DNA of 44,410 bases, taken from contig SYEM01000119.1 of assembly GCA_005801385.1 (NCBI GenBank), forward strand, positions 1 to 44,410. The letters run 5' to 3'. Shown in pieces: positions 202-17,800 of the stretch; positions within the stretch are counted from its first letter, which is position 1; each line of letters opens with the position of its first letter. The translations under genes were made by a program, and so were the position numbers. The notes beneath the pieces were generated by a model. The model did no database searches. It saw nothing but the letters and a program-made list of their open reading frames with translations, and was not told where the DNA came from. This DNA comes from Verrucomicrobiales bacterium. Its GTDB lineage: Bacteria; Verrucomicrobiota; Verrucomicrobiia; Limisphaerales; UBA9464.

Positions 202-1146
202 TCAGGCGGCCTCCCGAAGGTTCCTTCTCATGCGGCTCCGGAGCAGGATTGCCCCAACATTGAGGGTGAGTGTCAGAGCCAAGAGCGCCAGGATCGTGGC
301 ATAGAGGATCGGGGCCGTCTGGTCGACATTCGGCGACTGCGTGGCGAGGACGTAGACATGGTATCCCAGGTCCATGAACTGGTCTGTCAGCCGGCCTGGG
401 AGCTCGGCCGTGTAATAGGCCGCCCCGGTGAAGAGGATCGGTGCCACCTCTCCCGCCGCCCGACCCACCGCGAGGATCCCGCCGGTGAGGATCCCCGGCA
501 ACGCCTGGGGCAGCACGATCCGCCAGACCGTCTCAAGCTTCGTCGCGCCCAGGGCCAGGCTGGCCTCCCGGAGCCCCGACGGGATCGAACGCAGCGATTC
601 CTCGGTGGCGACGATGACGACCGGGAGCGTCATGACCGCAAGGGTCAGGGAGGCCCACAGGAGGGACGGTCGGCCGAATACCGGCACACCAGAGCCCGTG
701 AGCCCATCCAGTCCCCGACCCAGGAAATTCACGAAGAAGCCCAGACCGAAGAGCCCGAAGACAATCGAGGGAACACCCGCGATGTTGCCGATCGCTGCGC
801 GGATCCCACGGGTGACGGGAGAGGCCGGATCGGCGTACTCCGTCAGATACACGGCCGTGACCACCCCAAAGGGCATCACGAAGACCGTCATGATCAGGAC
901 CCTCAAGGATGTCCCCACGACCATCGGCAGGATGGCGGCCGAATCGACATCGAAGAAATCCTTCCTCGGGATGGTCGACACGAACCGCCATGAGAAGGCG
1001 GGCATGCCCTTGGACAGCACCGTCGTCAGGAGGGCGACCAGAAACGCCAGGAGCACCAGGGTGGCCAGCCCAGTCAGGGTGAGACCCACGATTCCCGTGG
1101 GACCGCCCCACCGGCCCAGGCGCCGGGATGCCCCGAATGGCATCAT
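202..1146 (-). CDS. pstA: Phosphate ABC transporter permease PstA
   Basis: ORF 314 aa, multi-TM, ABC permease EAA-type motif (EASLALGATKLETVWRIVLPQALPGILTG); overlaps the pstC end by 4 nt. Confidence 0.93.
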   Translation of the reverse strand: MMPFGASRRLGRWGGPTGIVGLTLTGLATLVLLAFLVALLTTVLSKGMPAFSWRFVSTIPRKDFFDVDSAAILPMVVGTSLRVLIMTVFVMPFGVVTAVYLTEYADPASPVTRGIRAAIGNIAGVPSIVFGLFGLGFFVNFLGRGLDGLTGSGVPVFGRPSLLWASLTLAVMTLPVVIVATEESLRSIPSGLREASLALGATKLETVWRIVLPQALPGILTGGILAVGRAAGEVAPILFTGAAYYTAELPGRLTDQFMDLGYHVYVLATQSPNVDQTAPILYATILALLALTLTLNVGAILLRSRMRRNLREAA

Positions 1147-2336
1147 GCCATGCCCCCCAGTCGACGCCTGAGACGCCGGACGATCTGATCCCCGATCAGG
1201 TGGGTCACGAACGAGATTGCGAAGAGCAGCGTGCCCAGCAGGAACAGCATCCGATAGTGTCCCCCGCCCGAAACGGCCTCGGCCATCTCAGCGGCGATCG
1301 TGGCGGTCATGGACCGGGTCGAATCGAAGAGGCTCCACGAGAGCATGCTTGCGTTGCCGCTGGCCATCAGCACCACCATCGTTTCGCCCAGGCACCGGCC
1401 GAATCCCAGGATCATCGCCGCCACAACACCCGGCATCGCCGAGGGAAGGACGATCTGCCAGGCGGCCTGCCACGGGGAGGCTCCGAGCGACAGGGAGGCC
1501 TGGACGTATCCACGGGGAACACTCGTGAAGGAATCCTCCGCGATCGTGAAGATCAGGGGCACCGCAGTGAGGCCCAGGCCAATCCCTGCGACCAACGCGT
1601 TGAGGCGAAACTGGTAGCCGAAGAAGGACTGGAGGACGCCGGACAGCACGAGCAGGCAGAACACGCCCAGAACCACCGAGGGGATTCCCGCCAGCAGTTC
1701 GATCATGGGCTTGATCCACTCACGGAACCGGACCGGCGCCAGCTGGCTGACATAGAGGGCAGCACCCAGCGACAGGGGCACGGCGAACAGCAGACCCATT
1801 AGGGTCACCTTGAGGCTTCCGACCAGCAACGGGACCAGGTTGTACTTGTGGATTGTTCCGACGGGCTGCCATACGAATTCGGGACGGGAGTAGCCGGTCC
1901 ACTGGCGTGGCAGAAGGAGCCGACGCCAGTCGGCCGTGTTGACCGTGGCATCCGGATCGGCCCGGAAGGATTCTGGAATGTCCCGGAACCCCTCCTCCCG
2001 TGCTTCCATCATCGCCATGAGCGTCTCCCGATCCATACCTTCGAACTGGCTCCGCGACAGTTCCAGATAGGATCGCAGCGCGTCCCGCGGGATCGAGTCG
2101 ATCTCCTTCGAGGGAAGGATGGGCTGGACCAGGGCGGTGTTGATGCGGCCCATGAGGACCGGAAGCGCCTCACGACCCACAAAGACCAGAATCAACACCA
2201 TCAGCCCGATCGTGGAGAGCCCGACGGCCTGGATGAGCTTCTCAATGATCCACTCCCCCGGACGGGCCCGATGACCCCGGCGCAACCCCATCCAACCGGA
2301 AGTCGGGACCGCGGTGGAAGTGGGAGTCGGATGCAC
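1143..2336 (-). CDS. pstC: Phosphate ABC transporter permease PstC
   Basis: ORF 397 aa, permease motif (QASLSLGASPWQAAWQIVLPSAMPGVVAA); large insertion between TM1 and TM2. Confidence 0.92.
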   Translation of the reverse strand: MHPTPTSTAVPTSGWMGLRRGHRARPGEWIIEKLIQAVGLSTIGLMVLILVFVGREALPVLMGRINTALVQPILPSKEIDSIPRDALRSYLELSRSQFEGMDRETLMAMMEAREEGFRDIPESFRADPDATVNTADWRRLLLPRQWTGYSRPEFVWQPVGTIHKYNLVPLLVGSLKVTLMGLLFAVPLSLGAALYVSQLAPVRFREWIKPMIELLAGIPSVVLGVFCLLVLSGVLQSFFGYQFRLNALVAGIGLGLTAVPLIFTIAEDSFTSVPRGYVQASLSLGASPWQAAWQIVLPSAMPGVVAAMILGFGRCLGETMVVLMASGNASMLSWSLFDSTRSMTATIAAEMAEAVSGGGHYRMLFLLGTLLFAISFVTHLIGDQIVRRLRRRLGGMA

Positions 2337-2402: not shown

Positions 2403-3245
2403 TCAGTCCCGTCGGACTGGAAGGGGATAGTACCCGACGTCGCGGACCAGAGACTGGCCCTCGGGACCGCGGATCCAGCCGAGGAAGTCGGTGATCTCCG
2501 GGCGGTCCGTCGATGGATTCACATAGCAGTAGAGGTAGCGCGACACCGGATACTCACCGGAATGGACTGTCTTCTCGTTGGGCTCCACCGCCATGCCGCC
2601 CCGGGTCCGGGCAATTCCCAGCGTCTTGGTCCCCGACCCATAGGCCGCCCCGCCATAGCCGATGCCTTGGCGGTCTTGCCCAACGGCCTGGATCACCTGT
2701 GCCGTGCCCTGAAGGGTCTGCGTCGTGGGCGCGAAATCCCGTCCAGACAACACCCGGTCCTTGAAGAACTCATAGGTCCCGGAGCTGCTCTCGCGGCTGT
2801 ACAGGGTGATCGGGGCGTCGGCACCTCCCAGATCCCTCCAGTTGGTGATCCGCCCGGTGAACACCTCCCGAAGATCCTCCAGACTCAGCTCCCGGACAGG
2901 ATTGGATGGATTCACATACACGCTCAGCCCGTCCATCGCGACCGCATGCTCGGCCGGACGCTTCCGGAAGGTGCGGATGCAGGTCTCAAGCTCCCGGGCC
3001 TTCATCCGACGCGAGGCCGTGCAGATGTCGGTGGTCTGGTTCTGCAACGCCGCAAACCCGGTCCCGGTCCCACCACCTGTGACCTGGATGCGGGTGCCCG
3101 GGTGCCCTGCCATGTAGGTCTCGGCCCACCGCTGGGCCAGCACCACAAGAGTGTCGGATCCCTTGACGGTGATCTCACCGGCCAACAGACGGCCAAGCAG
3201 ACCCATCCAACCCCACAGGCACAGCACTCGGACAAAACCACTCAC
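2403..3245 (-). CDS. pstS: Phosphate-binding periplasmic protein, PstS-like
   Basis: ITVKGSDTLVVLAQRWAETYM...TGGGTGTGFAALQNQTTDIC...SRESSSGTYEFFKDRVL is PstS-like; likely GTG start at 3245 preceded by AGAGGA; the listed ORF extends upstream to 3320. Confidence 0.88.
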   Translation of the reverse strand: MSGFVRVLCLWGWMGLLGRLLAGEITVKGSDTLVVLAQRWAETYMAGHPGTRIQVTGGGTGTGFAALQNQTTDICTASRRMKARELETCIRTFRKRPAEHAVAMDGLSVYVNPSNPVRELSLEDLREVFTGRITNWRDLGGADAPITLYSRESSSGTYEFFKDRVLSGRDFAPTTQTLQGTAQVIQAVGQDRQGIGYGGAAYGSGTKTLGIARTRGGMAVEPNEKTVHSGEYPVSRYLYCYVNPSTDRPEITDFLGWIRGPEGQSLVRDVGYYPLPVRRD

Positions 3246-3341
3246 GTTTCCTCTGGATTCAGATAACGCATGGTGCAGTCCTCTTCCAGTTGAGTGACGA
3301 CACGGCAACAACCGCGCCATGGAGGCCGGATTCGTTGTACG

Positions 3342-4964
3342 TCAGTAGTTCCACTGGGCTTGGAACTCGATGCGGCTGGCCCCTTGGACATCCGCGTACG
3401 GGGCCTGGCTGGTGTTGGTCCGATCGAAGGTCCAGGTATACTGCACGCTCAGCTCAAGATCGGTCCAGGGTGAATACTCGAATCCGAAGTCGAGTTCGTT
3501 GACGTACTCGAAGGGCGCGTTACTGCCGAACTTCCGGCCGCCCTGATAGTAATGCCAGCGGGTGTAGGGGAACAGCTTTCCGCTGCCTACGCCGATCTGG
3601 TAGTTGGCCTGGAGGTACCCGCCGTTCAGCCAACCCGATTTGATCTGAGAGAAGTCGTAGTTCAGGCGCGGACCCGTGCCGATGTTCCATTCGGCCTCGA
3701 ACCCGAACGGCTGTGGATACCACACCGCCGTCGCGGCGACACGGCGGTCCATCACCCCGTCGGGGTCGAACTTCGGGGTCACCGGTTTCCCATTGTAGGA
3801 AACGGTCTGGACCGAGGGCACATACCGGCCCAGGTACCCCTGGAGGCCCACCTCGAGGAACTGGCCGTTGTCCAACTTGAAGGGGTAGTCAGCCCGGGCC
3901 AGCCAGTAGGGGAAGCCATTCAGGTCGGGCTTGTTGGGGCCCTGTCCGTTGTAGGCGCCAAACGACAGCACCCCGTAATCGCCCGACCCCTTGAGTCCCG
4001 ACTGCACGAGCTCCTTGAACCGCTTCCGGGCCTCCTCCGGTGCATACATCGCGAAGGCCCCGATGTCGCGCTCACCCTCCGCAGCCGAGTTGATCGCGTC
4101 CGGACGCTCCATTGGGGACCGGTTCTGACTCGACTGCATGTTGACCCAGCCATAAGGGACCTTGGACTGGCCCAGACGGAACCAGACCTCCCGCGAATCA
4201 GTCGGGTAGACATCGGCATAGAGGTCCCGCAGCTGGACTCCCGAGGACGAGCCTCCGCCACTGGCGATGTTGGCGAAGGCGTCCACCTGGGCATACAGGG
4301 ACAGGTGGGGGGACACATCCCCCGCCATCCGGAACCGGGCCCGGCGGATGGTGAATAGCGCGGTGGGGCTCACCGACGGATCGTTCGGGACGTTCAGCCC
4401 ATCCGCCTCCTCATTGAGCAGCGCCGTCACCCGGAACTGCGTGTACCCGCCCACGTTGAATTTCTGGTACCATTTCTCCTTCTCCTTCGGCACCGCAGCC
4501 GCGGCGGCCTTCGCCAGGGCGTTGGTGGACGAGGCCGTGTCGGCCAGCACTGGCGCGGTGGGAGCGACCCCGGGCTTTGCGGGAGCATTGGTGGATGCCG
4601 GTGCCGTCGTGGCCACACCCGGGGTGCCACCCACAGGTTTTCCAGAATTCTCGGGTGAACCGGCCATGTTCATCAGCAGCTGGTATTCCTCGGGGCTGAT
4701 CGAGCCCCGGTCCCTCAGGATCTTGAAGAGCTGCAGCATCGCCGGATCCGGAGCCGCCCAACCCGACTGGATCGCGAGGGCCAAACCCAGGAGACCGGAT
4801 CCCCACTTCCACCAGACCGGACCCAGCGGCACAGACGACCGCTGCGTCACCCGAATGGAACCCGTCACGGGTTCGACACCGGACCGTTTCTCGTTCGTCA
4901 CAGCATGGGTAAACGAAGTCGGGATTGGGACTCTCTCTGCGGACTGAAGACGTCTTGGACTCAC
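3342..4964 (-). CDS. Outer-membrane porin of the phosphate-selective porin O/P type
   Basis: 540 aa ORF, N-terminal signal-like segment, then beta-rich domain (YTQFRVTALLNEEADG...FTIRRARFRMAGDVSPHLSLYAQVD...C-terminal RIEFQAQWNY); adjacent to pstS. Start codon uncertain. Confidence 0.82.
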   Translation of the reverse strand: MSPRRLQSAERVPIPTSFTHAVTNEKRSGVEPVTGSIRVTQRSSVPLGPVWWKWGSGLLGLALAIQSGWAAPDPAMLQLFKILRDRGSISPEEYQLLMNMAGSPENSGKPVGGTPGVATTAPASTNAPAKPGVAPTAPVLADTASSTNALAKAAAAAVPKEKEKWYQKFNVGGYTQFRVTALLNEEADGLNVPNDPSVSPTALFTIRRARFRMAGDVSPHLSLYAQVDAFANIASGGGSSSGVQLRDLYADVYPTDSREVWFRLGQSKVPYGWVNMQSSQNRSPMERPDAINSAAEGERDIGAFAMYAPEEARKRFKELVQSGLKGSGDYGVLSFGAYNGQGPNKPDLNGFPYWLARADYPFKLDNGQFLEVGLQGYLGRYVPSVQTVSYNGKPVTPKFDPDGVMDRRVAATAVWYPQPFGFEAEWNIGTGPRLNYDFSQIKSGWLNGGYLQANYQIGVGSGKLFPYTRWHYYQGGRKFGSNAPFEYVNELDFGFEYSPWTDLELSVQYTWTFDRTNTSQAPYADVQGASRIEFQAQWNY

Positions 4965-5094: not shown

Positions 5095-5919
5095 GTGACG
5101 CTCGCGCCATATGACCGACACCGGTGGACCGGAATGCTGGCGGGGATGAGTCCGACATCCTACGGCACGCTGCTGATCTCCGTTGGTCTGGGCGCAGCCC
5201 TGATCCACTTCGTCCAGGCGGCCGACCCCTCCCTGAACTCGACCCGCGAGACGGTGGCGCAATGGGTCCAGACCCAGCAGTTGATCTCCAAGACCCGCAG
5301 CGACTGGGAGGCCGATCGGGAACTGCTCCAGCAGTCCAAGGCCCTGTTCGAACGGGAGCTGAAGGCGATCCAGGACGAGATGGGCAAGCAGAGCACGAAC
5401 AGCTCCGTGGCCGATGCAGAGCGGCTGAAGGCCGAGACGGAGCTGAAGCGGTCGAACGAGGCGCTCGAGCGGGCCAAGGTGGCCGCCGCAGCCCTCGAGA
5501 CCGAGGTGAAGTCCCTCCTCCCACTGCTTCCCGCGGCGGTCCTGTCCACTGCCCAGCCCCTGCTCAACAAGATTCCAGCCGACCCCAACACCACCAAGGC
5601 CGCCCCGACGGAGCGTATCCAGACGCTCGTATCGCTCCTCAACGAGATCGACAAGTTCAACAACGCCGTGACGGTCTTCACCGAGAAGCGGAAGGGTCCC
5701 AACGGCGAGGAGGTTTCCGTGGAGACCGTCTATGCCGGGCTGGGTGCCGCCTATTTCGTCAACGAGTCTGGGGACTTCGCCGGACACGGTCGTCCGGGTC
5801 CCCAGGGCTGGGACTGGACCCTCGATCCGAAGCTGGCCGACCCCGTCCGGGAGGTGATCCGGATCTATCGCAACGAGCGTACGGCACGCTTTGTGAGCCT
5901 CCCCGCCACCGTCGAATGA
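5095..5919 (+). CDS. DUF3450-type coiled-coil periplasmic protein (TonB/ExbB-associated)
   Basis: 274 aa ORF, signal peptide then long helical/coiled-coil region; first gene of ExbB/ExbD/TonB cluster; start may be 5095 (GTG), 5134 or 5146 (ATG). Confidence 0.75.
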   Translation: MTLAPYDRHRWTGMLAGMSPTSYGTLLISVGLGAALIHFVQAADPSLNSTRETVAQWVQTQQLISKTRSDWEADRELLQQSKALFERELKAIQDEMGKQSTNSSVADAERLKAETELKRSNEALERAKVAAAALETEVKSLLPLLPAAVLSTAQPLLNKIPADPNTTKAAPTERIQTLVSLLNEIDKFNNAVTVFTEKRKGPNGEEVSVETVYAGLGAAYFVNESGDFAGHGRPGPQGWDWTLDPKLADPVREVIRIYRNERTARFVSLPATVE

Positions 5920-7337
5920 CCCCTCTTTTCCGTCCCATGTCCTTCCGTCCTCTCCATGCGCTCGCCCTCGGAGCAATCCTCTCCCTCGGCACCCACGCTG
6001 CGGAGGCCGACCTCACCGGCCTCGCCAACGGAGCCCAGTCGGATCTCCAGAAGGCCCTCGCCACCCTCGCCGAGGTCCGACAGAAGATCGAAGCCGAGCG
6101 GGTCCCAATGGGACGCGAAATCAATGACCTGGAGCAGCGCCTCGCCGACCAGCGGGCCGATCTGGCGAAGGCCCAGCGGTTCCAGGAGAACCAGCTCGTC
6201 GAGCTCAACGCACTCAAGGCGGAGGCCAAACGCCGGGCCGACGAGGTCGGCTACATCGATTCCCTCCTGACGGAGTACACCCGGGCCTTCCGGTCGCGCC
6301 TCAACTTCGCCGAGGAGTCCAAGTACCTGCCAGCCGTCGAGGCGGCCGAGAAGGCCGCCGTCGCACCCGACCTGGCACCCGCGGACCGGATCGAACGCCG
6401 TACCGCCATCCTCAAGACCGCCCTCGGACGCGGACGCTCCGCGTTGGGCGGCGAGATCTTCGAAGGACGCGCCCTCGACCGCCAGGGGCGGGTCCAGAAG
6501 GGCAAGATCGCCCTGATCGGACCCATCTCCCTGTTTGCCGACACCGCAGGCACCACGGCGGGACTGCTGCAGATGGAGCTGAACAAGTCCGACCCCACGG
6601 TCATCGCCATCGACCCTGAGACGGAGATCGCAACCCGGGAGCTGGTGACCACGGGCAAAGGCAGGATCGCCCTCGATCCCACCCTCGGGAACGCCTTCAA
6701 GCTCAGCGCGATGGAGGAGACGCTCTTCGAGAAGATCAAACACGGTGGCTGGGTCATGGCACCGCTTCTGATCCTCGGGTTCGCCACCGCCATCGTGGCA
6801 CTGGTGAAATGGATCCAGCTCTCCCGGGTTCGCCTCGCCACGGAGAAGGATCTCCAAACCGTGCTGCAGCACCTCGGCAAGGGGGATCAGCCCGGAGCCC
6901 TGACCCATGCCCGCTCGATCCCTGGTCCCGCCGGCGAGCTGCTGTCCGCCGCCGTCGAGCACTCGGACGAGAAGAAGGAATACATCGAGGAGGTCATGTA
7001 CGAGAAGATGCTCGGCTGGCGGATCCGACTCGAACGCGGCCTTCCGTTCCTGGCGCTAACCGCCACGACCGGTCCCCTGTTTGGTCTGCTCGGCACCGTC
7101 ATGGGCATGATCGCCCTCTTCAAGCTCATCTCCAGCTTCGGCAGCGGGGATCCCAAGGTGCTGGCCTCCGGTATCTCCGAGGCCCTGATCGCCACCGCCT
7201 CGGGCATGATGGTCGCCATCCCTGCCCTGCTCCTCCACGCGTTCCTCAGCCGCAAGGCCAAGGGGATCATGGGCAGCCTTGAACAAACCTCGGTCGGCTT
7301 CATCAACGGCCTGCCCGAGCAGAACCCATTCGCCTGA
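5916..7337 (+). CDS. exbB: MotA/TolQ/ExbB proton-channel family protein with N-terminal periplasmic coiled-coil domain
   Basis: ATGA overlap with the preceding stop; signal peptide (MTPLFRPMSFRPLHALALGAILSLGTHAAEA), coiled coil, then ExbB core (LTATTGPLFGLLGTVMGMIALFK...EALIATASGMMVAIPALLLH). The listed ORF from 5124 includes out-of-frame upstream sequence. Confidence 0.88.
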   Translation: MTPLFRPMSFRPLHALALGAILSLGTHAAEADLTGLANGAQSDLQKALATLAEVRQKIEAERVPMGREINDLEQRLADQRADLAKAQRFQENQLVELNALKAEAKRRADEVGYIDSLLTEYTRAFRSRLNFAEESKYLPAVEAAEKAAVAPDLAPADRIERRTAILKTALGRGRSALGGEIFEGRALDRQGRVQKGKIALIGPISLFADTAGTTAGLLQMELNKSDPTVIAIDPETEIATRELVTTGKGRIALDPTLGNAFKLSAMEETLFEKIKHGGWVMAPLLILGFATAIVALVKWIQLSRVRLATEKDLQTVLQHLGKGDQPGALTHARSIPGPAGELLSAAVEHSDEKKEYIEEVMYEKMLGWRIRLERGLPFLALTATTGPLFGLLGTVMGMIALFKLISSFGSGDPKVLASGISEALIATASGMMVAIPALLLHAFLSRKAKGIMGSLEQTSVGFINGLPEQNPFA

Positions 7338-7354: not shown

Positions 7355-7996
7355 ATGAACGCCTTCATCAAGGAACTCCTCCACGCGTGGTCCACCGGAG
7401 GATGGGTGATGATCGCCCTCGCGATCCTCGGGGTGATCATCTACGGCACCGCCGCCTACCTCGTCGTCAACCTCTACCACCGCGGGATCACCCGCATCAG
7501 CGATGCCGACATGCGCCGCTGGGTGGGGGATCCGGCCAATGCCCCGGGCGAGTTCCGGGAGCTGATCCGCTACACGCAGGACGAGGTGCGCTCCCTGGAG
7601 GACATCGAGGGCCGTTTCCGCGAGATCGAGTCCAGCAAGGTCTCGGAGGTCGACCGTCGGATCACGTTCCTGAACGTCATGGTGGTCGGCGCGCCCCTGT
7701 TCGGCCTGCTCGGCACCGTCCTGGGCATGCTCCTCACCTTCAAGGCGATCGGCATCGGTGGCGGATCTGCCTCGGAGATCATCTCCAAAGGCATCAGCGA
7801 GGCGCTGGTCGCGACCCAGACCGGGATGATGGTGGCGATCCCGGGGCTCATCGTGGCCTACATCGCCAAGATCCTCCGGAACGAGTTCGTCTCGTTCCTG
7901 GCCCGACTCGAGACCCTCACGCTCCGCCACTTCCGCCCCCAGTTCCACGGCATGACCCGCGTGTTCACGAAGCCCACGGGACAGAGTCCCTCCTGA
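7355..7996 (+). CDS. exbB: ExbB/TolQ proton-channel protein (second copy)
   Basis: 213 aa; APLFGLLGTVLGMLLTFKAIG...EALVATQTGMMVAIPGLIV. Confidence 0.9.
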   Translation: MNAFIKELLHAWSTGGWVMIALAILGVIIYGTAAYLVVNLYHRGITRISDADMRRWVGDPANAPGEFRELIRYTQDEVRSLEDIEGRFREIESSKVSEVDRRITFLNVMVVGAPLFGLLGTVLGMLLTFKAIGIGGGSASEIISKGISEALVATQTGMMVAIPGLIVAYIAKILRNEFVSFLARLETLTLRHFRPQFHGMTRVFTKPTGQSPS

Positions 7997-8017: not shown

Positions 8018-8422
8018 ATGAAGTTCCGCCGCCACCTCGCCGAGGCCGAGGAGAACATCGACCTGAACCTGATCCCGCTCATCGACGTGATCATGTTCCT
8101 CCTGATCTTCTTCATCTCCACCACCAGCTTCGTCGAGGAGCCCGGGGTGACGGTCGACAAGCCCCAGGCCGCCAGCGCCCGCCAGCTCGAGAAGAACAGC
8201 ATCATCTTTGCTGTCACCTCCGACGGAAAGGTCGCCTACGGCGGCAAGGAGATCGGGCTCGGCGGTGTCCGCCCCACCGTGAAGCGCCTCTGTGCCAAGG
8301 AACCGCTGCCGGTCGTGATCCAGAGCGATGAGAACTCCAAGTCGGGGGTCCTGATCCGGGTGATCGACGAGGCGAAACTGGGGGGCGCCAAGGACGTGAG
8401 CCTCGCCACTGAGAAGGGCTGA
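8018..8422 (+). CDS. exbD: Biopolymer transport protein ExbD/TolR
   Basis: 134 aa; NIDLNLIPLIDVIMFLLIFFISTTSF signature. Confidence 0.92.
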   Translation: MKFRRHLAEAEENIDLNLIPLIDVIMFLLIFFISTTSFVEEPGVTVDKPQAASARQLEKNSIIFAVTSDGKVAYGGKEIGLGGVRPTVKRLCAKEPLPVVIQSDENSKSGVLIRVIDEAKLGGAKDVSLATEKG

Positions 8423-8436
8423 CCCTCGAAACCGGC

Positions 8437-9105
8437 ATGCGGAAGGTCTACCAGCATTCGGACTCCCAGCGGGGCCTATGGATCGCCATGGCGACCTCGG
8501 TCGTCATGACGTTCGGCATCTTCCTCATCCTGCCGTTCACCCATGTGGTGGCCCGGCCGGAGCGGACTCTCGAGCTGCGGAAGACGAGCGTTGCCGATAT
8601 CCCGCCACCGACGGAAGAAGAACCCCCACCGCCGCCCGAGCAGGAGAAGCCCCAGGAGGACACCCCTCCGCCCCCGTCCCTCGCGGACATCCCCCAACAG
8701 GTTCCGGTCATGGCCGACCTCGATGTTGCTGTGGGCGGTGGCGGCTTCCTGCCCGGATTCAGCAGCCTCGCCGGCTCCCAGGCCACCCAGGAGACGGAGG
8801 GCGTCGCCGAGGCGTTCAGCGCGGCCGATCTCGAGGAGCGCCCCCAGGCCACCGCCCAGACCCCACCCACCTACCCGGCCGAGCTCCGCAAGGCCAAGGT
8901 CGAGGGCAGTGTCACGGTGGCGTTCGTTGTCGACGAGAATGGCCGTGTCGAGGACGCCCGGGTGGAGAAGTCCAGCCATCCCGAGTTCGAGAAGTCCGGT
9001 CTGGAGGCGATCCGCAAGTGGCGCTTCCGCCCCGGCCGCAAGGAAGGCCAGGCCGTCCGGACCTATCTCGTGCAGACCTTTCGTTTCCGCCCCCCGGGTA
9101 ATTGA
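8437..9105 (+). CDS. tonB: TonB family energy transducer
   Basis: N-terminal TM, Pro/Glu-rich linker (PPPTEEEPPPPPEQEKP), C-terminal TonB domain (YPAELRKAKVEGSVTVAFVVDENGRVEDARVEKSS...AIRKWRFRPG). Confidence 0.92.
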   Translation: MRKVYQHSDSQRGLWIAMATSVVMTFGIFLILPFTHVVARPERTLELRKTSVADIPPPTEEEPPPPPEQEKPQEDTPPPPSLADIPQQVPVMADLDVAVGGGGFLPGFSSLAGSQATQETEGVAEAFSAADLEERPQATAQTPPTYPAELRKAKVEGSVTVAFVVDENGRVEDARVEKSSHPEFEKSGLEAIRKWRFRPGRKEGQAVRTYLVQTFRFRPPGN

Positions 9106-9108
9106 CCG

Positions 9109-10533
9109 ATGAGAACCCCCATCCTCCTCCCCGCCCTTGCGGCCGTCGTCCTGTCCCTGCCCCTCTGCGCGGCGGACCCGACACCGTCGACCGGACAGCC
9201 CCCCGCCGCCTTTGCGCCGGTCGCAGCCGGAAATCCCCTGGCATCGATGTGGAACGACCCCGAATTCCAGCGCCGCATGCTGGGCAGCTACGGGATGAAG
9301 TCGGAGATCGAGCCGCGCATGACGCCCGACGAGCAGGCCGTGTATCGCGACAAGATCGTGCCCGCGCTCCGTGGTGGGGCCAAGGCCGCCATCGACCTGC
9401 TCAAGGACCGAGCCAAGCCGGGTTCGACCGCGCAGTTCGACTTCGCCCTGGGCAACGTCTACTTCCAAAACGACGACCTCACCAACGCCATCACATCGTT
9501 CGAGGCCGCCATCGGGAAGTTCCCCGACTTTCTCCGCGCCCAGAAGAACCTCGGGTTCGCCTACCTCCGCACCGGCCAGTTCGAGAAGGCCGTGCAGCCC
9601 TTGTCGAAGACCATCTCCCTAGGCGGACCGGACGGAAAGGTGTTCGGGTTCCTCGGCTACTGCTACGGCAACCTGGGCCGCAATGCCTCGGCCCTGGGAG
9701 CCTACCAGCAGGCCCTACTGTTCGAGCCCGACAACCTCGACTTCAAGCTCGGCCTGGTGAAGAGCGCGATCGGCCTCGGGTCCTACGACCAAGCGCTGGC
9801 GCTTCTCGACGAGGTCCTGCAGCAGCATCCCGAACGCGACGCTCTCTGGGCCCTGCAGGCCAATGTGTTCGTGCAGAAGGGCCAGATGGACAAGGCCGCG
9901 GTGTCGCTCGAGATGCTACGGCGCCTCGGCAAGGCCACCCCCGCCCAGCTCCTGATGCTGGGGGACCTGTATCTGAACCAGGAGGCCCGGGACCTGGCCC
10001 TCGGCGCCTACAATGAGGCGGTTGAGAAAGGACCAGGAGCCAACCTGCCGAAGGCCCTGCGGGCGGCCGACATCCTCGCCTCGCGCAGCGCGTTCAAGGA
10101 GGCCTCCGACCTGCTCAAGAAGATCCGCTCCACGTCCGGGTCCGCCCTGACCGGCAACGACGAGCTCAGGTGGTACAAGCTTTCGGCCAAGGTGGCGCTC
10201 GGAACCGGGGACGGCACCAAGGCCATGGAGATGCTCGAGGGCGTCATCCAGAAGAACCCTCTCGACGCCGAGGCGTTGATCATGGCCGGCGACTACTACG
10301 CCCGGAACGGCCAGCCCGAGAAGGCGCTGTTCCGTTACGAGACCGCCGGAAAGATCGATGGGTTCGAAGCCGATTCCCTCGTCAAGCAGGCGCAGCTGAT
10401 GGTCTCCACCCGGAAGTACGAGCCGGCCCTCGAACTCCTGCGCAAGGCCCAGAAGGTGAAGCCCCGGGACAACGTCCAGCGCTACCTCGAGCGGGTCGAA
10501 CAGGTCGCCCGCAACGCGAGCCGCCGGTCCTGA
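9109..10533 (+). CDS. Secreted TPR-repeat protein
   Basis: 474 aa, signal peptide, multiple TPR units (FALGNVYFQNDDLTNAITSFEAAIGKFPDFLRAQKNLGFAYLRTGQFEKAV...). Confidence 0.85.
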   Translation: MRTPILLPALAAVVLSLPLCAADPTPSTGQPPAAFAPVAAGNPLASMWNDPEFQRRMLGSYGMKSEIEPRMTPDEQAVYRDKIVPALRGGAKAAIDLLKDRAKPGSTAQFDFALGNVYFQNDDLTNAITSFEAAIGKFPDFLRAQKNLGFAYLRTGQFEKAVQPLSKTISLGGPDGKVFGFLGYCYGNLGRNASALGAYQQALLFEPDNLDFKLGLVKSAIGLGSYDQALALLDEVLQQHPERDALWALQANVFVQKGQMDKAAVSLEMLRRLGKATPAQLLMLGDLYLNQEARDLALGAYNEAVEKGPGANLPKALRAADILASRSAFKEASDLLKKIRSTSGSALTGNDELRWYKLSAKVALGTGDGTKAMEMLEGVIQKNPLDAEALIMAGDYYARNGQPEKALFRYETAGKIDGFEADSLVKQAQLMVSTRKYEPALELLRKAQKVKPRDNVQRYLERVEQVARNASRRS

Positions 10534-10564: not shown

Positions 10565-13459
10565 GTGGATCCCATCCTCTCCAAGGCCCGCCTCGGCTGG
10601 GCACTGACCCTGTTGCTGCTGGTCTGGAGCGTGTCGACGGTGCGCGCCCAGGAGACCGGAACCTTGTCCGGAACGGTCGTGAACAGCTGGGACGGCCGTC
10701 CCCTGCCCGGGGTGATCATCACCGTGCGGGGCACCGTGCTGGCCACCACCTCCGACGCCACGGGCCGGTATCGCCTCGAAGGCGTTCCCGCCGGAGAGCA
10801 CAGCGTCCGCTTCAGCAAATCCGGCTTCGCTCAGGCCACCGCCACCGGGGTTCGGGTAGCTCCTGGACTTGTCCGTGAATTGCCCGGCGCGCTGCGCCCC
10901 GAGTTCTTCGAGATGGAGGAGTACGAGGTCACGGCCGAGGAGTTCCAGGTCGAGGCCCTCGAGATCATCGAGCAACGGCAAGCCTCGACCTCCTTCATCG
11001 ACGCCATCAGCTCGGAGCAGTTCCGGCGACTGGGAGTGACCGACGCCGCCCAGATCATCACCAAGCTTCCGGGCACCACGGTGGTCGACGGCAAGTTCGC
11101 TGTCATCCGCGGTCTGAGCGACCGCTACAACATCACCCAGCTGAACGGGGCCCAGATCCCGACCGCAGATCCCTACCGGCAGGGGGCTCCGCTCGACATC
11201 ATCCCAGCCTCCATGATCCGGGAGATCTCCGTGAGCAAGACCTTCACGCCCGATCTGCCCGGAGGGTTTGCGGGTGGCCTGGCGAACGTCATCACCAAGT
11301 CGTTCCCGGACAAGTTCTTCCTGCAGATCGAGCTGAACCTCGAATACAACACCCAGGCGACGTTCAACCCGAACTTCATCTCCTACCCAGGGAGCGAATA
11401 CGACTGGGCGGGCTTTGGGGAGTCGACCCGGTCCCTGCCCGCGGTGCTGAACGGCCAGACCGGATCCACACTGCGCCGGCCACCCCGTGCGCCGGCCAAC
11501 CAGACCCCGGCCCAGGCCCAGCAGCGGGCCAACCAGGCGAACCTCCTCCAGGACGCACTCGGTTCGTTCCAGGACTACACCTTCGCCGGAACGCCCAAGG
11601 CTCCGCCCATGAACTACGGGGGCAACTTCTCCGTGGGCGACACCATCGATCTCAACGGACACGACTTCGGCTACTTCGTCGGCGGCGTCTACCGGCGACG
11701 TTGGACCTTCTACGACGACGGGATCCAGGCCCGCTACAGACCGATAGGGGTCGACACCATCGCCCCCTATCGTCAGCTCAAGGACACCCGCGGAGTGATG
11801 GAGGCCACCTGGGCGAATGTGATCAACCTCGCCTACGAGATCATCCCGGAGGATCACACCATCGGGTTCACCTTCTATTGGAACCAGAACGGCGAGGACA
11901 CGACCCGGCGCCAGGTGGGGACCATCGAGAACTTCGAACAGACGGTGGACCTGAACACGCTCCAATGGATCCAGCGCCAAGTGCACGCATTTCAGATCCG
12001 TGGCGACGACCATTTCGAGGAGTTCCTGGACCTCAAGTCTGACTGGCTGATCTCGATCGCCAACACGACCCAGGACGAACCGGACCTCCGCTATTTCAAC
12101 TACGCGTACCAGCCGGATGGATCCAACCCGGTGTTCTCGAACTCGATCCCCGAGCCGATCTTCCCCACGCGATTCTACCGCAACATCAACGAGGACAGCA
12201 TCTGGGCGGCGCTGAACAACAAGATCCCGTTTAAGCAGTGGTCGGGTGAGGAATCATTCGTGAAGTTTGGTGGGGCCTACAGCGGCTCCGAGCGCCAGTT
12301 CGAGGAGCAGACCTTCCAGTTCGCCGGCACCACGGCCTGGGGCGAGCCGCCGACGCCGAACAACTACTTCACCCCGTCCAACCTCCGCTACACCCCCCAG
12401 ACCACCTCGCGCGGGACCAACTATGTGTTCGACCGCTGGTTCCAGGAGGGCATCTCTCCCGCCACCTACACGGGCACCCAGGAAATCCCGGCGGGCTACT
12501 CGATGGTCGAGCTGCCGGTCGCCGAAAGCTGGAAGGTCGTCGGAGGCGCCCGGCTCGAGAACACCACGATGTCGATCCGAGGCGACGGCGGGGCCGCCGG
12601 CTCCACGAATTCCCTGATCAACCAGCTGAACCTGATGCCCGCCATCAGCGGCACCTACTCGATCCGTTCCAACATGAACCTCCGGGCCAGCTTCAGCCAG
12701 ACCGTCGCCCGGCCCTCCTATCGGGAGATCGCGCCCTACCGGTCCTACGACACGACCGGCGACGAGATCATCCAGGGCAACCCCGGCCTGAGGATGACCG
12801 ACATCAACAACTACGACGTCCGCTGGGAATGGTACCCGAAGCCAGGCGCCGTTCTCTCGGTGAGCGGCTTCTACAAGCAGCTGCAGAACCCGATCGAGAA
12901 GGTCGCCCTGACCTTCGGCGGCGGCATCGTGACGTTTGAGAACCGCCAGGAGGCACAGCTCTATGGCTTGGAATTCGAGGCCAACAGCAAGCTGGACTTC
13001 CTCGATGACTCCCTCGAGGAGTTCCTCGTCGGGTTCAATTTCGCCTTCATCCAGTCCGAGGTCGAGCTCACCGCCACGGAGTACGCCAACGAGCGGGTCC
13101 TCTTTCCGAACGTGTCGAAGACCCGTCCCCTCTACGACCAGTCGCCGTGGATCGTGAACTACGACCTCACCTACGATCGGAAGGCCTCGGGAACGACCGC
13201 CACCATCTCGCTCGGAGCCGCAGGACCCTACATCTACATCGTCGACCGGGCCGGTCCCGACGTCTACGAGTTCCCGCCGATCCAGCTCAACTTCGTCGTG
13301 ACCCAGCGCCTCTCGGAACACTGGAAGATGCGCCTCACGGCCCGGAATCTCCTGAATCCCGAGACGATCCGTTCCTACGGCGAGGAAGCCGGGGGCCCCA
13401 TCTACGCCTCCTCGACCGTCGGCGTGAACATCGCCCTCACCCTGACGTTCGAGTACTGA
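10565..13459 (+). CDS. TonB-dependent outer-membrane receptor with N-terminal carboxypeptidase-regulatory-like domain
   Basis: 964 aa; GTLSGTVVNSWDGRPLPGVIITVRG...VPAGEHSVRFSKSGF domain, plug (DAAQIITKLPGTTVVDGKFAVIRGLSDRYNITQLNGAQIP...TPDLPGGFAGGLANVITK), C-terminal barrel ending LTLTFEY; GTG start. Confidence 0.9.
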   Translation: MDPILSKARLGWALTLLLLVWSVSTVRAQETGTLSGTVVNSWDGRPLPGVIITVRGTVLATTSDATGRYRLEGVPAGEHSVRFSKSGFAQATATGVRVAPGLVRELPGALRPEFFEMEEYEVTAEEFQVEALEIIEQRQASTSFIDAISSEQFRRLGVTDAAQIITKLPGTTVVDGKFAVIRGLSDRYNITQLNGAQIPTADPYRQGAPLDIIPASMIREISVSKTFTPDLPGGFAGGLANVITKSFPDKFFLQIELNLEYNTQATFNPNFISYPGSEYDWAGFGESTRSLPAVLNGQTGSTLRRPPRAPANQTPAQAQQRANQANLLQDALGSFQDYTFAGTPKAPPMNYGGNFSVGDTIDLNGHDFGYFVGGVYRRRWTFYDDGIQARYRPIGVDTIAPYRQLKDTRGVMEATWANVINLAYEIIPEDHTIGFTFYWNQNGEDTTRRQVGTIENFEQTVDLNTLQWIQRQVHAFQIRGDDHFEEFLDLKSDWLISIANTTQDEPDLRYFNYAYQPDGSNPVFSNSIPEPIFPTRFYRNINEDSIWAALNNKIPFKQWSGEESFVKFGGAYSGSERQFEEQTFQFAGTTAWGEPPTPNNYFTPSNLRYTPQTTSRGTNYVFDRWFQEGISPATYTGTQEIPAGYSMVELPVAESWKVVGGARLENTTMSIRGDGGAAGSTNSLINQLNLMPAISGTYSIRSNMNLRASFSQTVARPSYREIAPYRSYDTTGDEIIQGNPGLRMTDINNYDVRWEWYPKPGAVLSVSGFYKQLQNPIEKVALTFGGGIVTFENRQEAQLYGLEFEANSKLDFLDDSLEEFLVGFNFAFIQSEVELTATEYANERVLFPNVSKTRPLYDQSPWIVNYDLTYDRKASGTTATISLGAAGPYIYIVDRAGPDVYEFPPIQLNFVVTQRLSEHWKMRLTARNLLNPETIRSYGEEAGGPIYASSTVGVNIALTLTFEY

Positions 13460-13464
13460 CCAGT

Positions 13465-14727
13465 ATGGGGGCTTGGGACTGGAACGGACGGCCCCATCCG
13501 CGGTTGCCCGGGGACCAGTCCACGGCACCTTGCAGCTCCATGCTTTCCGGTTCCAGCCGTCGCACCGCCGTCTGTCCTTGGTCAGGACACGTCACCCACC
13601 AGCCGGTGCGATCACCCAACGGAGGTCCATCGGGATGCCCTGAGGACCCAGGTCGCGCAGCGGCACGGTTCATCGAGAATCACGCCCTCGAGACGGGAAT
13701 CGCCGGGACTGCAACGGCTGCGGCACGCATGGAGGACGTCTGCCGGGAAATGCAGGCCACCGGCACCTACACCCACACGGCGTCCGAACTCGAGTGGGCG
13801 GGTCGCGTGGCGTGGCGGAACAGCACCCGTTGCGTCGGGCGCCTCTTCTGGAAATCCCTGCGGGTCATCGACGCCCGGGAGGCGATCACCCCGGAACAGC
13901 AGGAAAAGGCGATCCGGCGACACCTTCGTCTGGCGACCCACGACGGGGCGATTCGGCCAGTGATGACCGTTTTCCCACCCGAGAAAACCGGCAGACCTGG
14001 GCCTCGGATCCGAAACCATCAGCTCATCCAGTACGCCTGGTGGGAGGATCTTGGCGTCGGCGACCGGGCAAACGCCGAACTCACCCGCTTCCTGATCGGG
14101 AAGGGCTGGCAACCGCCGGCAACCCGGGGCGCCTTTGATGTCCTGCCCGTCTGGATCCAGACCCCGGGTGGACCTGGTGTCCTGATTCCCTGGCATCCGG
14201 AGGAGGTCCTGCGCGTCGACATCCGTCATGGTCGACATCCGTCACTGGAGCAACTGAACTGGAGCTGGCATGCGGTGCCAGCCCTGAGCGATTTCCGGCT
14301 CGAGGCCGGCGGCATCGTCTATCCCACCGCGCTCTTCAATGGCTGGTACATGGGGACCGAGATCGGCGCGCGCAACCTGGTCGATCCCGATCGCTATGAC
14401 GGGCTCGGCGCCCTCGGTCGCGTCCTGGGGCTCGACCAGTCCCGCGAGGACACCCTGTGGCGAGACGAGGCCCTCGTGGTGTTGAACCAGGCGGTGCTCG
14501 AGAGCTTCTCGAAGGCTGGGGTCACCATGATCGACCACCACACCGCCACCACGGATTTCATGAAGTTCTGCGATCGTGAACAACGATCCGGCCGGGAAGT
14601 CCAGGCGGACTGGTCTTGGATGATCCCGCCCATCAGCCCCGCCGCCACCGCGGTATGGAACGCCGACTGGCCGAACCGGGAACAGGATCCCCGCCTCGCC
14701 CAGAACGCGTCGATGACAGGTCCCTGA
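13465..14727 (+). CDS. nos: Bacterial nitric oxide synthase, oxygenase domain only
   Basis: Heme-thiolate motif AGRVAWRNSTRCVGRLFW (Cys codon 13831-13833), LPAxxxFRLEAGGIVYPTALFNGWYMGTEIGARNLVDPDRY substrate/heme region, MIDHHTATTDFMKFC and ADWSWMIPPISPAATAVW pterin-region motifs. Start uncertain: ATG 13465, ATG 13540 or GTG 13606. Confidence 0.93.
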   Translation: MGAWDWNGRPHPRLPGDQSTAPCSSMLSGSSRRTAVCPWSGHVTHQPVRSPNGGPSGCPEDPGRAAARFIENHALETGIAGTATAAARMEDVCREMQATGTYTHTASELEWAGRVAWRNSTRCVGRLFWKSLRVIDAREAITPEQQEKAIRRHLRLATHDGAIRPVMTVFPPEKTGRPGPRIRNHQLIQYAWWEDLGVGDRANAELTRFLIGKGWQPPATRGAFDVLPVWIQTPGGPGVLIPWHPEEVLRVDIRHGRHPSLEQLNWSWHAVPALSDFRLEAGGIVYPTALFNGWYMGTEIGARNLVDPDRYDGLGALGRVLGLDQSREDTLWRDEALVVLNQAVLESFSKAGVTMIDHHTATTDFMKFCDREQRSGREVQADWSWMIPPISPAATAVWNADWPNREQDPRLAQNASMTGP

Positions 14728-14785: not shown

Positions 14786-14818
14786 GAAAAAGGGGCCGGG
14801 CATTGCTGCCCGGCCCCT
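14786..14818 (-). terminator. Rho-independent terminator for the minus-strand LamG gene, between convergent nos and LamG gene
   Basis: Perfect 12-bp stem AGGGGCCGGGCA (14791-14802), TTGC loop, TGCCCGGCCCCT (14807-14818); read on the minus strand it is followed by a T run. Confidence 0.85.
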
Positions 14819-14838: not shown

Positions 14839-17800
14839 TCAGTTCGAAGCGCGATAGAACCGGACCTGAGACCCAACAGGGATCGTGTACGGGCTGGTCG
14901 CACCCGGGACATCCTTGAAGGTCCCAGTCAACGAATCGGCCTCCTGGAGCTTGCCGGTGAAGGTCACCGTCGAGCCTTGGATGCTCACAGCGGGCTTCAC
15001 CGGAGCATCGCCACGGGGTGCCACGCTAGTTCCGATACGGATGCGCTGGACCGAGTAGTTCGACGGATTCTGCTGGCCCTCGAGATCCGTCCCGAGGAAC
15101 CCGTTCCCGCCGTACGCATTGTTCGGCGGCGCGCCGGATCCGGTGTCGCTCATCGTGGAGAACCCGAAGATCAGCTGACTGCTCAGCGGCAGCGCCTTCG
15201 GCCCGTCCAGCAGCGCCCACTCACGGCCGTCGTACGAGACGAAGAACGTGAAGTCGTTGCCGGCGCGCTTGATACGGAGCCACCGCGAGGACAACGGCGA
15301 GCTCTCCGGATCCGGAGTGCCCGCGGCGTCGATCGCGCGCTGGTCGAGGTCGTAGCCCTTGATGCCACCGATCGGCGTGGTCCAGGCGAAGCCCGGGTTG
15401 CCGTTGCCGTATCCCGCACCCGGCTCCTCGCGGAAGAGCGGGATGCCGGCACGGTTCGGGGCCGACCCCTCGATGTACGTGGTGTTGGCCACCATCGCCA
15501 CCTTGGTGCCGTCCTGCGTATACTGCTGACCCGGGAGATACTCCGCCTCACGGAGCATCAGGCCGGAGTTGGCCCATGCCGCGGTGTTGGCCGGACGATC
15601 GTTGCGGCTGACCTCCACCGTGACCTCGAAGTCGCCTACAAGCGGCACGCCGCTGACGTAGTGGACATAGTCGCCGGGGTTCCAGGCATTGGAACCGCCG
15701 CCGATGATCTCGATCTCGGTCTCCGTGGAGCCGGAGGCCACAGCAACCGCCTGGCCGATCCGGTACGGATCGTCACCCGCGGTCCGGACATCCGGATTGC
15801 CGCTCTGGATGAGGCCGATGTCGGTCGACTTCCAGGCCGACGAGCGGCCGGTGACCTTCGATCCGGCCGGCAGCTGGTTGCCGGCTGCATCGGTCACGTT
15901 GTTGACCGTGACGTCGAACGTGTCGGCGGTGAGGCCATTGACGGTGAGGTACACCGAATCGCCACCGATGCCGCCCTGGACGGCGGTCACGGTGCCCTGG
16001 CTGATCGAATAGTTTGCCGCCACCAGCGCGCCCGAAGAGGCGACCGGCTCGGAGAACTTCACGCCGACGACCTTCTTGCCCATGGTCGCGGCCGAAACCA
16101 GTGACGGGGCGACGTTGTCGTTCAGGACCGTCTTGCCGTAGTTCGAGAACCCAACCGTGGCCAGGTTCTTGCCACCGGTCTGGTCCGCGGAGTTATAGCT
16201 CGCGGAGAACGCGTAGGCGCCCACCAGGAGCTTCTCAGGCCACTCCTGCCAGCGCTGGCCAACGAGGGCCCAGCTGCTGCCATCGGTGCCGACATAGGCG
16301 GCGAACCAGTTGCCGACACGACGCAACCGGATCCACTGGCTCGGTAGGGTCTTGTCGACTCCGCCGTAGGACCGGCCGAACGAGGTGTAGTTCTGGGCGG
16401 CAGCAGCCCGGCCAATCGCGCGAACCTCGTTCACACCCTTGGGATTGCCCACGTTGACCAGGAACGACGGGCTCAGGGCGTTGAGTGCCCATCGTGCCTG
16501 CAGTCCGCCGGACGCCCAGGCATCGACCGGATCCGTCACCGGACCGCTGGTCACGCTGGTCACCTTGGTGCTGATGTCGAAGTCGCCCAGGATCTCCTCA
16601 TACGCGAACTGCTGAACGTCGCCTGGCTGGTCGACGTTCGATGCGGCCGCCCAGGCCACGAGTCCAGGTCCGGCCACGGTCATCGACCCCGGCCCACCGA
16701 AGGTCACTGAACCGGCCGGCAGCTCCACCGGCAGGGCTTCGGTCGGCTTGATCAGGGCGGTCTTGAGGGCATCACCGACAGTGGCCGCGGTGTAATGGGC
16801 CTTCGCCTGGGCCGCCGTGAGGGCCTTGTTGTAGACGGCCACTTCATCGATGGAACCGGTGAAGTTGTCCGCCCAACCCTCGCCGGTCGACCCGATCGCC
16901 CAGTCGCCATCGGGGACGGCGACCGCACCCACGGCATCCGCCTGGCTGGCGACCTGGGTTCCATTGCGGTAGAGGCGCCAGGTGGTGCCGTCATAGACAC
17001 CCACCAGGTGGATCCAGTTGCCGGAGCCGAGGTCGGACCCCACAGGAGCCCGGACTCCGTGGAAGCCGGCGCTATCGGTGGAGCCGAGGACATACTCGGA
17101 GCCGTTCTCGATGCGGAGGGAAACCTCGTTGGGGCTCAGGAGTGAGCCGGCAAGGGTGATGCCCGCCTCGCCGGGGGAGGCGAAGTCGGACTGGAGGGCC
17201 GGACCATGGGAGAGGATGCGCGCGACAGCCCCCTGGGCGGCATCCGGCTTGACCCAGGCCTCGAGACTGATCTGACCCGAGAAGTTGAGGGAAGCAGGGT
17301 TGTTGAGGGAGACGAAGTTGCGATCGGTGATGGGCACCGCGGCATTTTCGCCCGTGAAGCCAGGCCCAGTGACGCCTGGGGCGGTATTCGCGCCATTCAC
17401 CATGACACCCTCTGCGAGGGACCCAACGAAGCCGCTGTTGCCGGCAGAGGCGCTGGCCGGCTCATTGAACCGGAGATAGAGCGGCGGCAGGGTGACACGC
17501 TCCTTGGTCTGGTCGGGCGAGTTGTTCGCATCGAACCCAGCGGTGTAGACGAGGGACTCGTAGGGCTTTGCCGGGTTGCGGGTCTTGCCAGCCTCATAGT
17601 GGGCCGCGATTTGCTCGGGCTTGAGGACGTAGTTGTTGTAGAACGCTATCTCGTCGATGCCTCCCTCGAAGGGGTTCGAGCCGATGCCGGAGGCCAGGTT
17701 GTAGGCACCGATGCCGAGATCGGCGGGGACGCCCACGGGCTTGCCCTGCCCTTCCTCGGGAACGGCCCGGTTGGCGGCGTAGAGGGCGTTCTCATTGCGG

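Follow-up and report, generated by a model that had tools for sequence, protein, structure and literature searches.

The window, by which we mean the whole 44,410-nucleotide stretch of DNA analysed here, contains a genuine oxygenase-only bacterial nitric oxide synthase (NOS) gene, which in this genome and in that of one close relative stands directly behind a TonB-dependent receptor gene at the end of a TonB2-type operon, and whose product carries a Cys-Pro (CP) motif in its N-terminal tail. The reading that we prefer, and to which we attach a probability of roughly 0.64, is a joint one: the enzyme would make NO, its gene would have been added behind the operon and be read through from it, and the CP tail would handle heme.

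The open reading frame at 13147-14727 (+) holds the whole NOS oxygenase domain. NO_synthase (PF02898) is matched over the Pfam cut-off at 403.6 bits (E 9.3e-121), across positions 8-357 of the 362 in the profile, and is the sole Pfam family within 420 aa, there being no fused reductase. The earlier note, made from the sequence of the window, had reported a complete oxygenase core without a flavodoxin or reductase domain; both statements are confirmed, the core lying at the place and on the strand proposed with every quoted motif present. The closest solved relatives by sequence (phmmer) are the NOS oxygenases of Bacillus, and an AlphaFold2 model built from a 32-sequence alignment (pLDDT 87.6) matches B. 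subtilis NOS in Foldseek with a TM score of 0.86 and rmsd of 1.6; a single-sequence model (pLDDT 34.5) was discarded. Residues 1-31 fall below a pLDDT of 50 and are probably disordered, as far as the model indicates. Nearly all columns that are invariant among NOS in our alignment (A1) are retained, including the heme ligand C98 and most residues of the heme-thiolate loop W92-R101 (13813..13842, +), as well as E274 (14359..14361, +), which by its place in the NOS family would be the arginine-binding glutamate. Comparison with the related genome G001 gives a dN/dS of 0.20 for the whole NOS gene and 0.12 for its core, the receptor gene having 0.19; such low values for NOS imply functional constraint and purifying selection.

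The same comparison relocates the start codon, which had been placed at the ATG 5 nt past the receptor stop (13465). G001 has no ATG just after its receptor stop, and the stretch leading from the receptor stop to ATG 13540 has diverged between the two genomes, with frame-breaking indels, so that it cannot be aligned as coding sequence. A start at 13465 is hence ruled out, and positions 13465..13539 (+) are probably an untranslated spacer. From ATG 13540 onwards the proteins of the window and G001 do align (MLSGSSRRTAVCPWSG and MLSGSSHRTAVCPFTG respectively), with synonymous changes in 7 of the first 13 codons, giving a gene of 395 aa at 13540..14727 (+). With this start the gap between receptor and NOS is 80 nt in the window and 70 in G001, the former being the largest in the gene run, where other gaps are 3-31 nt. 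A twin-arginine reading of the tail sequence SSRRTAV was also dismissed; G001 has SSHRTAV and no hydrophobic stretch follows.

Upstream of NOS, and on the same strand, the genes follow the order of a TonB2-type system: a TtpB-like DUF3450 protein, the first gene of the operon (5095..5919; PF11932, E 2.1e-22), a long, TtpC-like MotA/ExbB protein whose 5' limit is approximate (5934..7337; PF01618, E 4.1e-30), ExbB (7355..7996; PF01618, E 2.3e-21), ExbD (8018..8422; PF02472, E 5.2e-25), TonB (8437..9105; PF03544, E 2.9e-21) and a TtpD-like protein matching Pfam TPR families (9109..10533). The TonB-dependent receptor comes next (10565..13459), with CarboxypepD_reg (PF13620) and Plug (PF07715) domains and a partial match to TIGR01782; it ends at 13459, immediately upstream of NOS as had been claimed. 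The divergent neighbours, a Porin_O_P outer-membrane porin (3342..4964, -; PF07396, E 1.1e-23), a PstS-like substrate-binding protein (2403..3320, -; PF12849, E 5.2e-40) and two ABC permease genes (202..2336, -, at 1143-2336 and 202-1146; PF00528 in both, PstC and PstA being inferred by position), suggest phosphate; a search of the window for a PHO box found none. Beyond NOS lies a terminator-like hairpin (14791..14818, called on the - strand), whose stem is kept in G001, followed by a convergent gene (14839-19308, -) that encodes a 1489-aa protein with three Laminin_G_3 stretches.

Receptor and NOS occur in the same order in G001, where the proteins are 82.7% and 81.9% identical to those of the window respectively. 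In two other genomes of the genus, G002 and G003, the receptor (69% identical) is the last gene of the run and a convergent gene follows it; no NOS match was found in either, G002 being only about 70% complete. NOS hence stands behind the receptor in two of the four genomes compared within the genus. G017, from the same family, has a NOS on a contig that differs from that of its TonB operon. More widely, NOS occurs in 4 of 96 relatives, in 5 of the 320 genomes covered from the order and in 18 of the 388 from the phylum, and its neighbours vary throughout the phylum. Another 22 NOS loci from the phylum, a few being fragments at the ends of contigs, were judged by eye from ORF starts without a Pfam scan, and in none does a receptor directly adjoin NOS; a general pairing of the two genes was rejected on this ground. 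L118 has a receptor-like ORF near NOS, not adjoining it. Since the adjacency recurs in G001 only, and is absent from G002, G003, G017 and the other loci of the phylum, we regard the pairing as a local arrangement. The comparison of neighbourhoods proposed in the earlier note therefore bears out the adjacency in one congener and no further, and its broader theme, a coupling of NO production to nutrient uptake, is not supported as a generality; any such link is local and unproven. Its remark that the pairing seemed undescribed still holds, our literature search having found no report that joins bacterial NOS, a TonB-dependent receptor and an operon. NOS genes in Verrucomicrobia have already been reported, with toxin genes not beside them (PMC5673642).

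In other genomes of the family to which this genus belongs, the TonB-dependent receptor is followed, at the place occupied here by NOS, by a gene of about 317-332 aa (L161:1181-2134, L162:10873-11826 and L163:669-1667), without a Pfam match in the one case tested. One and the same NOS fragment, a 263-aa ORF with the same neighbouring ORFs, occurs in genomes of two different groups (L090, G157:C252; L121, G676:C66), and one of these bins is probably contaminated by the other.

The gene had further been proposed to be the distal cistron of the operon, a proposal that is sustained by the shared strand and order and by their conservation in G001, and weakened by the 80-nt gap and by recurrence in a single congener; support for the placement comes from two close species. 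NOS could instead be a chance neighbour, inserted behind the receptor under its own promoter and unconnected with the TonB operon in regulation or function, and we give this a substantial though minority likelihood. It accords with the width of the gap, with the presence of NOS there in only two of the four genomes sampled from the genus and its different location in G017, and with the shifting company that NOS keeps across the phylum. However, gene order and terminator are both kept in two species whose proteins have diverged by 17-18%, and the gap has neither conserved upstream DNA nor any promoter-like site (the scan being for sigma-70 type sites) or terminator-like site. Co-transcription of receptor and NOS is plausible.

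The NOS proteins of the window, G001 and G017 form one clade in a quick tree (support 100, stem branch 0.84), in which 23 positions differ from a residue that 75% or more of the other aligned NOS share. The changes include R164Q/A, G167W, Y168W, M252F, P265L, F373W and H374N/D; in the window the last two appear as W373-N374 (14656..14661, +), replacing the F-H of a PVFH stretch in which, outside the clade, F is found in 26 of 29 sequences and H in 28 of 29. In NOS structures this stretch helps to form the pterin site of the partner subunit in the dimer. With near-invariant residues lost on the pterin side and elsewhere, activity could be altered, and judging by these replacements the pterin preference of the clade may differ.

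A second NOS is encoded in the same genome, the assembly of which is 80% complete in 330 contigs. This protein (G000:C305:3112-6510; L086) combines domains of the cNMP-binding type, a BFD-like 2Fe-2S domain, a reductase region and a NOS oxygenase; Fer2_BFD and NO_synthase are over cut-off, and FAD_binding_6 is so only in the homologue L088 from G005. In the tree, each of the two NOS of the genome belongs to a clade of its own, both clades having full support. The second gene sits between nuoA-like and panC-like genes, which in G001 (98% and 91% identical respectively) lie next to each other with no NOS between them. Contamination is an unlikely source of this gene, because its flanks (90-98% identical) are collinear in G001, which lacks only NOS. 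The organism has, then, a reductase-linked NOS elsewhere in its genome, where a PTPS/QueD-family gene is also present, so that the statement that no dedicated reductase or pterin gene is visible is true of the window and not of the genome. In another genome, G480, a short degenerate NOS-like ORF (L126:3085-3684) accompanies a multidomain NOS on a separate contig (L125), cut at the contig end.

These features bear on the possibility that the window protein is a heme protein of NOS fold that has moved away from ordinary NO synthesis towards another pterin, substrate or product. Changes at near-invariant positions, the pterin-side exchange of F-H for W-N/D and the long stem branch of the clade all speak in its favour, and the second NOS, with its own reductase, could supply NO. 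Against it, the protein retains the heme cysteine, the arginine-binding glutamate and almost every invariant column, and its core evolves at a dN/dS of 0.12; we judge such a drift improbable.

The tail of the window NOS reads VCPWSGH, in which C12-P-W-S-G-H17 (13573..13590, +) lies within the low-confidence residues 1-31. CP[FWYVIL] occurs in the N-tail of 10 of 18 single-domain NOS from the phylum of the window, where shuffled tails give 0.31, and at most 4 in 20,000 shuffles. A wider set of 72 non-redundant NOS was assembled from representatives below 85% core identity, with cores located by a BLAST-anchored rule and the start codons of other loci also set by rule. CP is present in an end tail of 33 of these, 11 at the N-terminus, 22 at the C-terminus and none at both, compared with expectations from shuffling of 0.62 and 0.78 respectively (never more than 6 for either end); the reversed order PC[FWYVIM], used as a control, appears in no N-tail and one C-tail. 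The exclusivity of the two ends has p = 0.012, uncorrected for ancestry. Almost every C-tail that contains a cysteine has it in CP (23/24), and 20 of the 22 C-terminal motifs have their cysteine within nine residues of the end. Carriers at the C-terminus include Lentzea, Saccharothrix, Streptomyces, Paenibacillus, Brevibacillus and Alicyclobacillus, the named set being biased to the matches nearest the window query. Endings of the CP[FVYI]xH type, such as terminal GCPVAH and KCPFAH, were observed in L006, L008, L021, L033, L042, L061, L075, L079, L081, L082, L085 and L110, from Actinomycetota, Bacillota and one genome of the phylum of the window. Alignment of the variable tails is unreliable; the spacing from motif to His varies, and G001 lacks the His.

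The resemblance of these tail motifs to heme-regulatory CP motifs suggests that the terminal CP of NOS may be a heme-handling tag. Each of the 14 KatG-type proteins that we read from related genomes (L177-L191) has a comparable CP[FV] in its N-terminal segment. The P450s of those genomes have no consistent terminal CP motif and were dropped as further carriers. Our literature search on heme-regulatory motifs in connection with KatG or bacterial NOS returned nothing on a terminal CP tag. Tentatively, and from a correlation of motif patterns, we raise the possibility that NOS and catalase-peroxidases share a terminal CP[FVYW] tag, often followed by His, which would capture or sense heme and so control maturation or turnover, the window NOS being one carrier. 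If true, a CP tag found in KatG and, across three bacterial groups, at opposite ends of NOS would offer a testable handle on how heme loading is achieved or policed, and the tag may prove a more general discovery than the operon link.

We consider it doubtful that the terminal CP instead forms a metal site where the subunits of the dimer meet, comparable to the zinc site of the animal enzymes. C12 does fall near the zinc cysteines of eNOS when positions are counted back without gaps from phmmer alignments in which the region itself is unaligned. CPWSGH also fits the Cys-X4-His pattern that has been reported, as a partly conserved zinc motif, from the N-terminal region of Streptomyces turgidiscabies NOS (PMC3701330). 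However, the variable His spacing, the lack of the His in G001 and the occurrence of a comparable motif in KatG, whose fold is unrelated, all oppose a metal site, and because the motif is also C-terminal, in 22 representatives, the zinc reading is kept only as a rival. A redox role stands beside zinc as the rival to the heme tag.

On the joint reading that we prefer, the window NOS would be a soluble enzyme of 395 aa that converts arginine to NO and citrulline, with its electrons supplied by the general reductases of the cell and a reduced pterin, probably tetrahydrofolate, as cofactor; cellular reductases and tetrahydrofolate are the partners proposed for bacterial NOS (PMC3701330). In two related species its gene stands behind the last gene of the TonB2-type operon, where it was probably added, and transcription probably runs on into it from the receptor gene as far as the conserved terminator. 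This placement would give NOS the expression pattern of the operon and need imply no direct role for NO in uptake, while the Cys-Pro tail would capture or sense labile heme, or switch the stability of the protein according to heme or redox state. Should the link to the operon be borne out, a Gram-negative bacterium would have its endogenous NO tied to the acquisition of nutrients at the outer membrane, of which we found no description. The possession of stand-alone and self-sufficient NOS by one genome would, in addition, make both comparable within one cell.

Among known systems, the window NOS is most simply set beside the B. subtilis type of bacterial NOS (PF02898), with which it shares the oxygenase-only architecture, the fold, and the heme and arginine residues, at about 43% identity in the structure alignment, and from which it differs in its N-terminal CP tail, its clade-specific pterin-side residues and its placement behind a TonB operon. 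That operon is like the TonB2 system of Vibrio vulnificus (TtpB2, TtpC2, ExbB2, ExbD2, TonB2, TtpD2) in having the same kinds of gene, ttpB2 (DUF3450) being first and ttpD2 (TPR) last in Vibrio (PMC6957404); unlike it, the window operon has a receptor, and in two species NOS, behind the TPR gene. The second NOS on C305 resembles scNOS of Sorangium cellulosum, in which the reductase comes first and the oxygenase last (PMC3701330), both having an N-terminal 2Fe-2S domain and flavin-type reductase before a C-terminal oxygenase, a likeness that is drawn from the published layout; it bears, in addition, N-terminal domains of the cyclic-nucleotide-binding type, and the window NOS belongs to a separate clade from this Sorangium-type protein. 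Streptomyces turgidiscabies NOS has, by its published description, an N-terminal Cys-X4-His like that of CPWSGH, whereas no toxin-biosynthesis neighbours were seen at the window NOS. Lastly, the Irr protein of Bradyrhizobium binds heme at the CP motif Gly-Cys-Pro-Trp-His-Asp (GCPWHD) (PMC11442138), which like the NOS tip has Cys-Pro-aromatic and then His; in the window, by contrast, the motif is a putative heme site, recognised by its sequence, at the tip of a catalytic heme enzyme.
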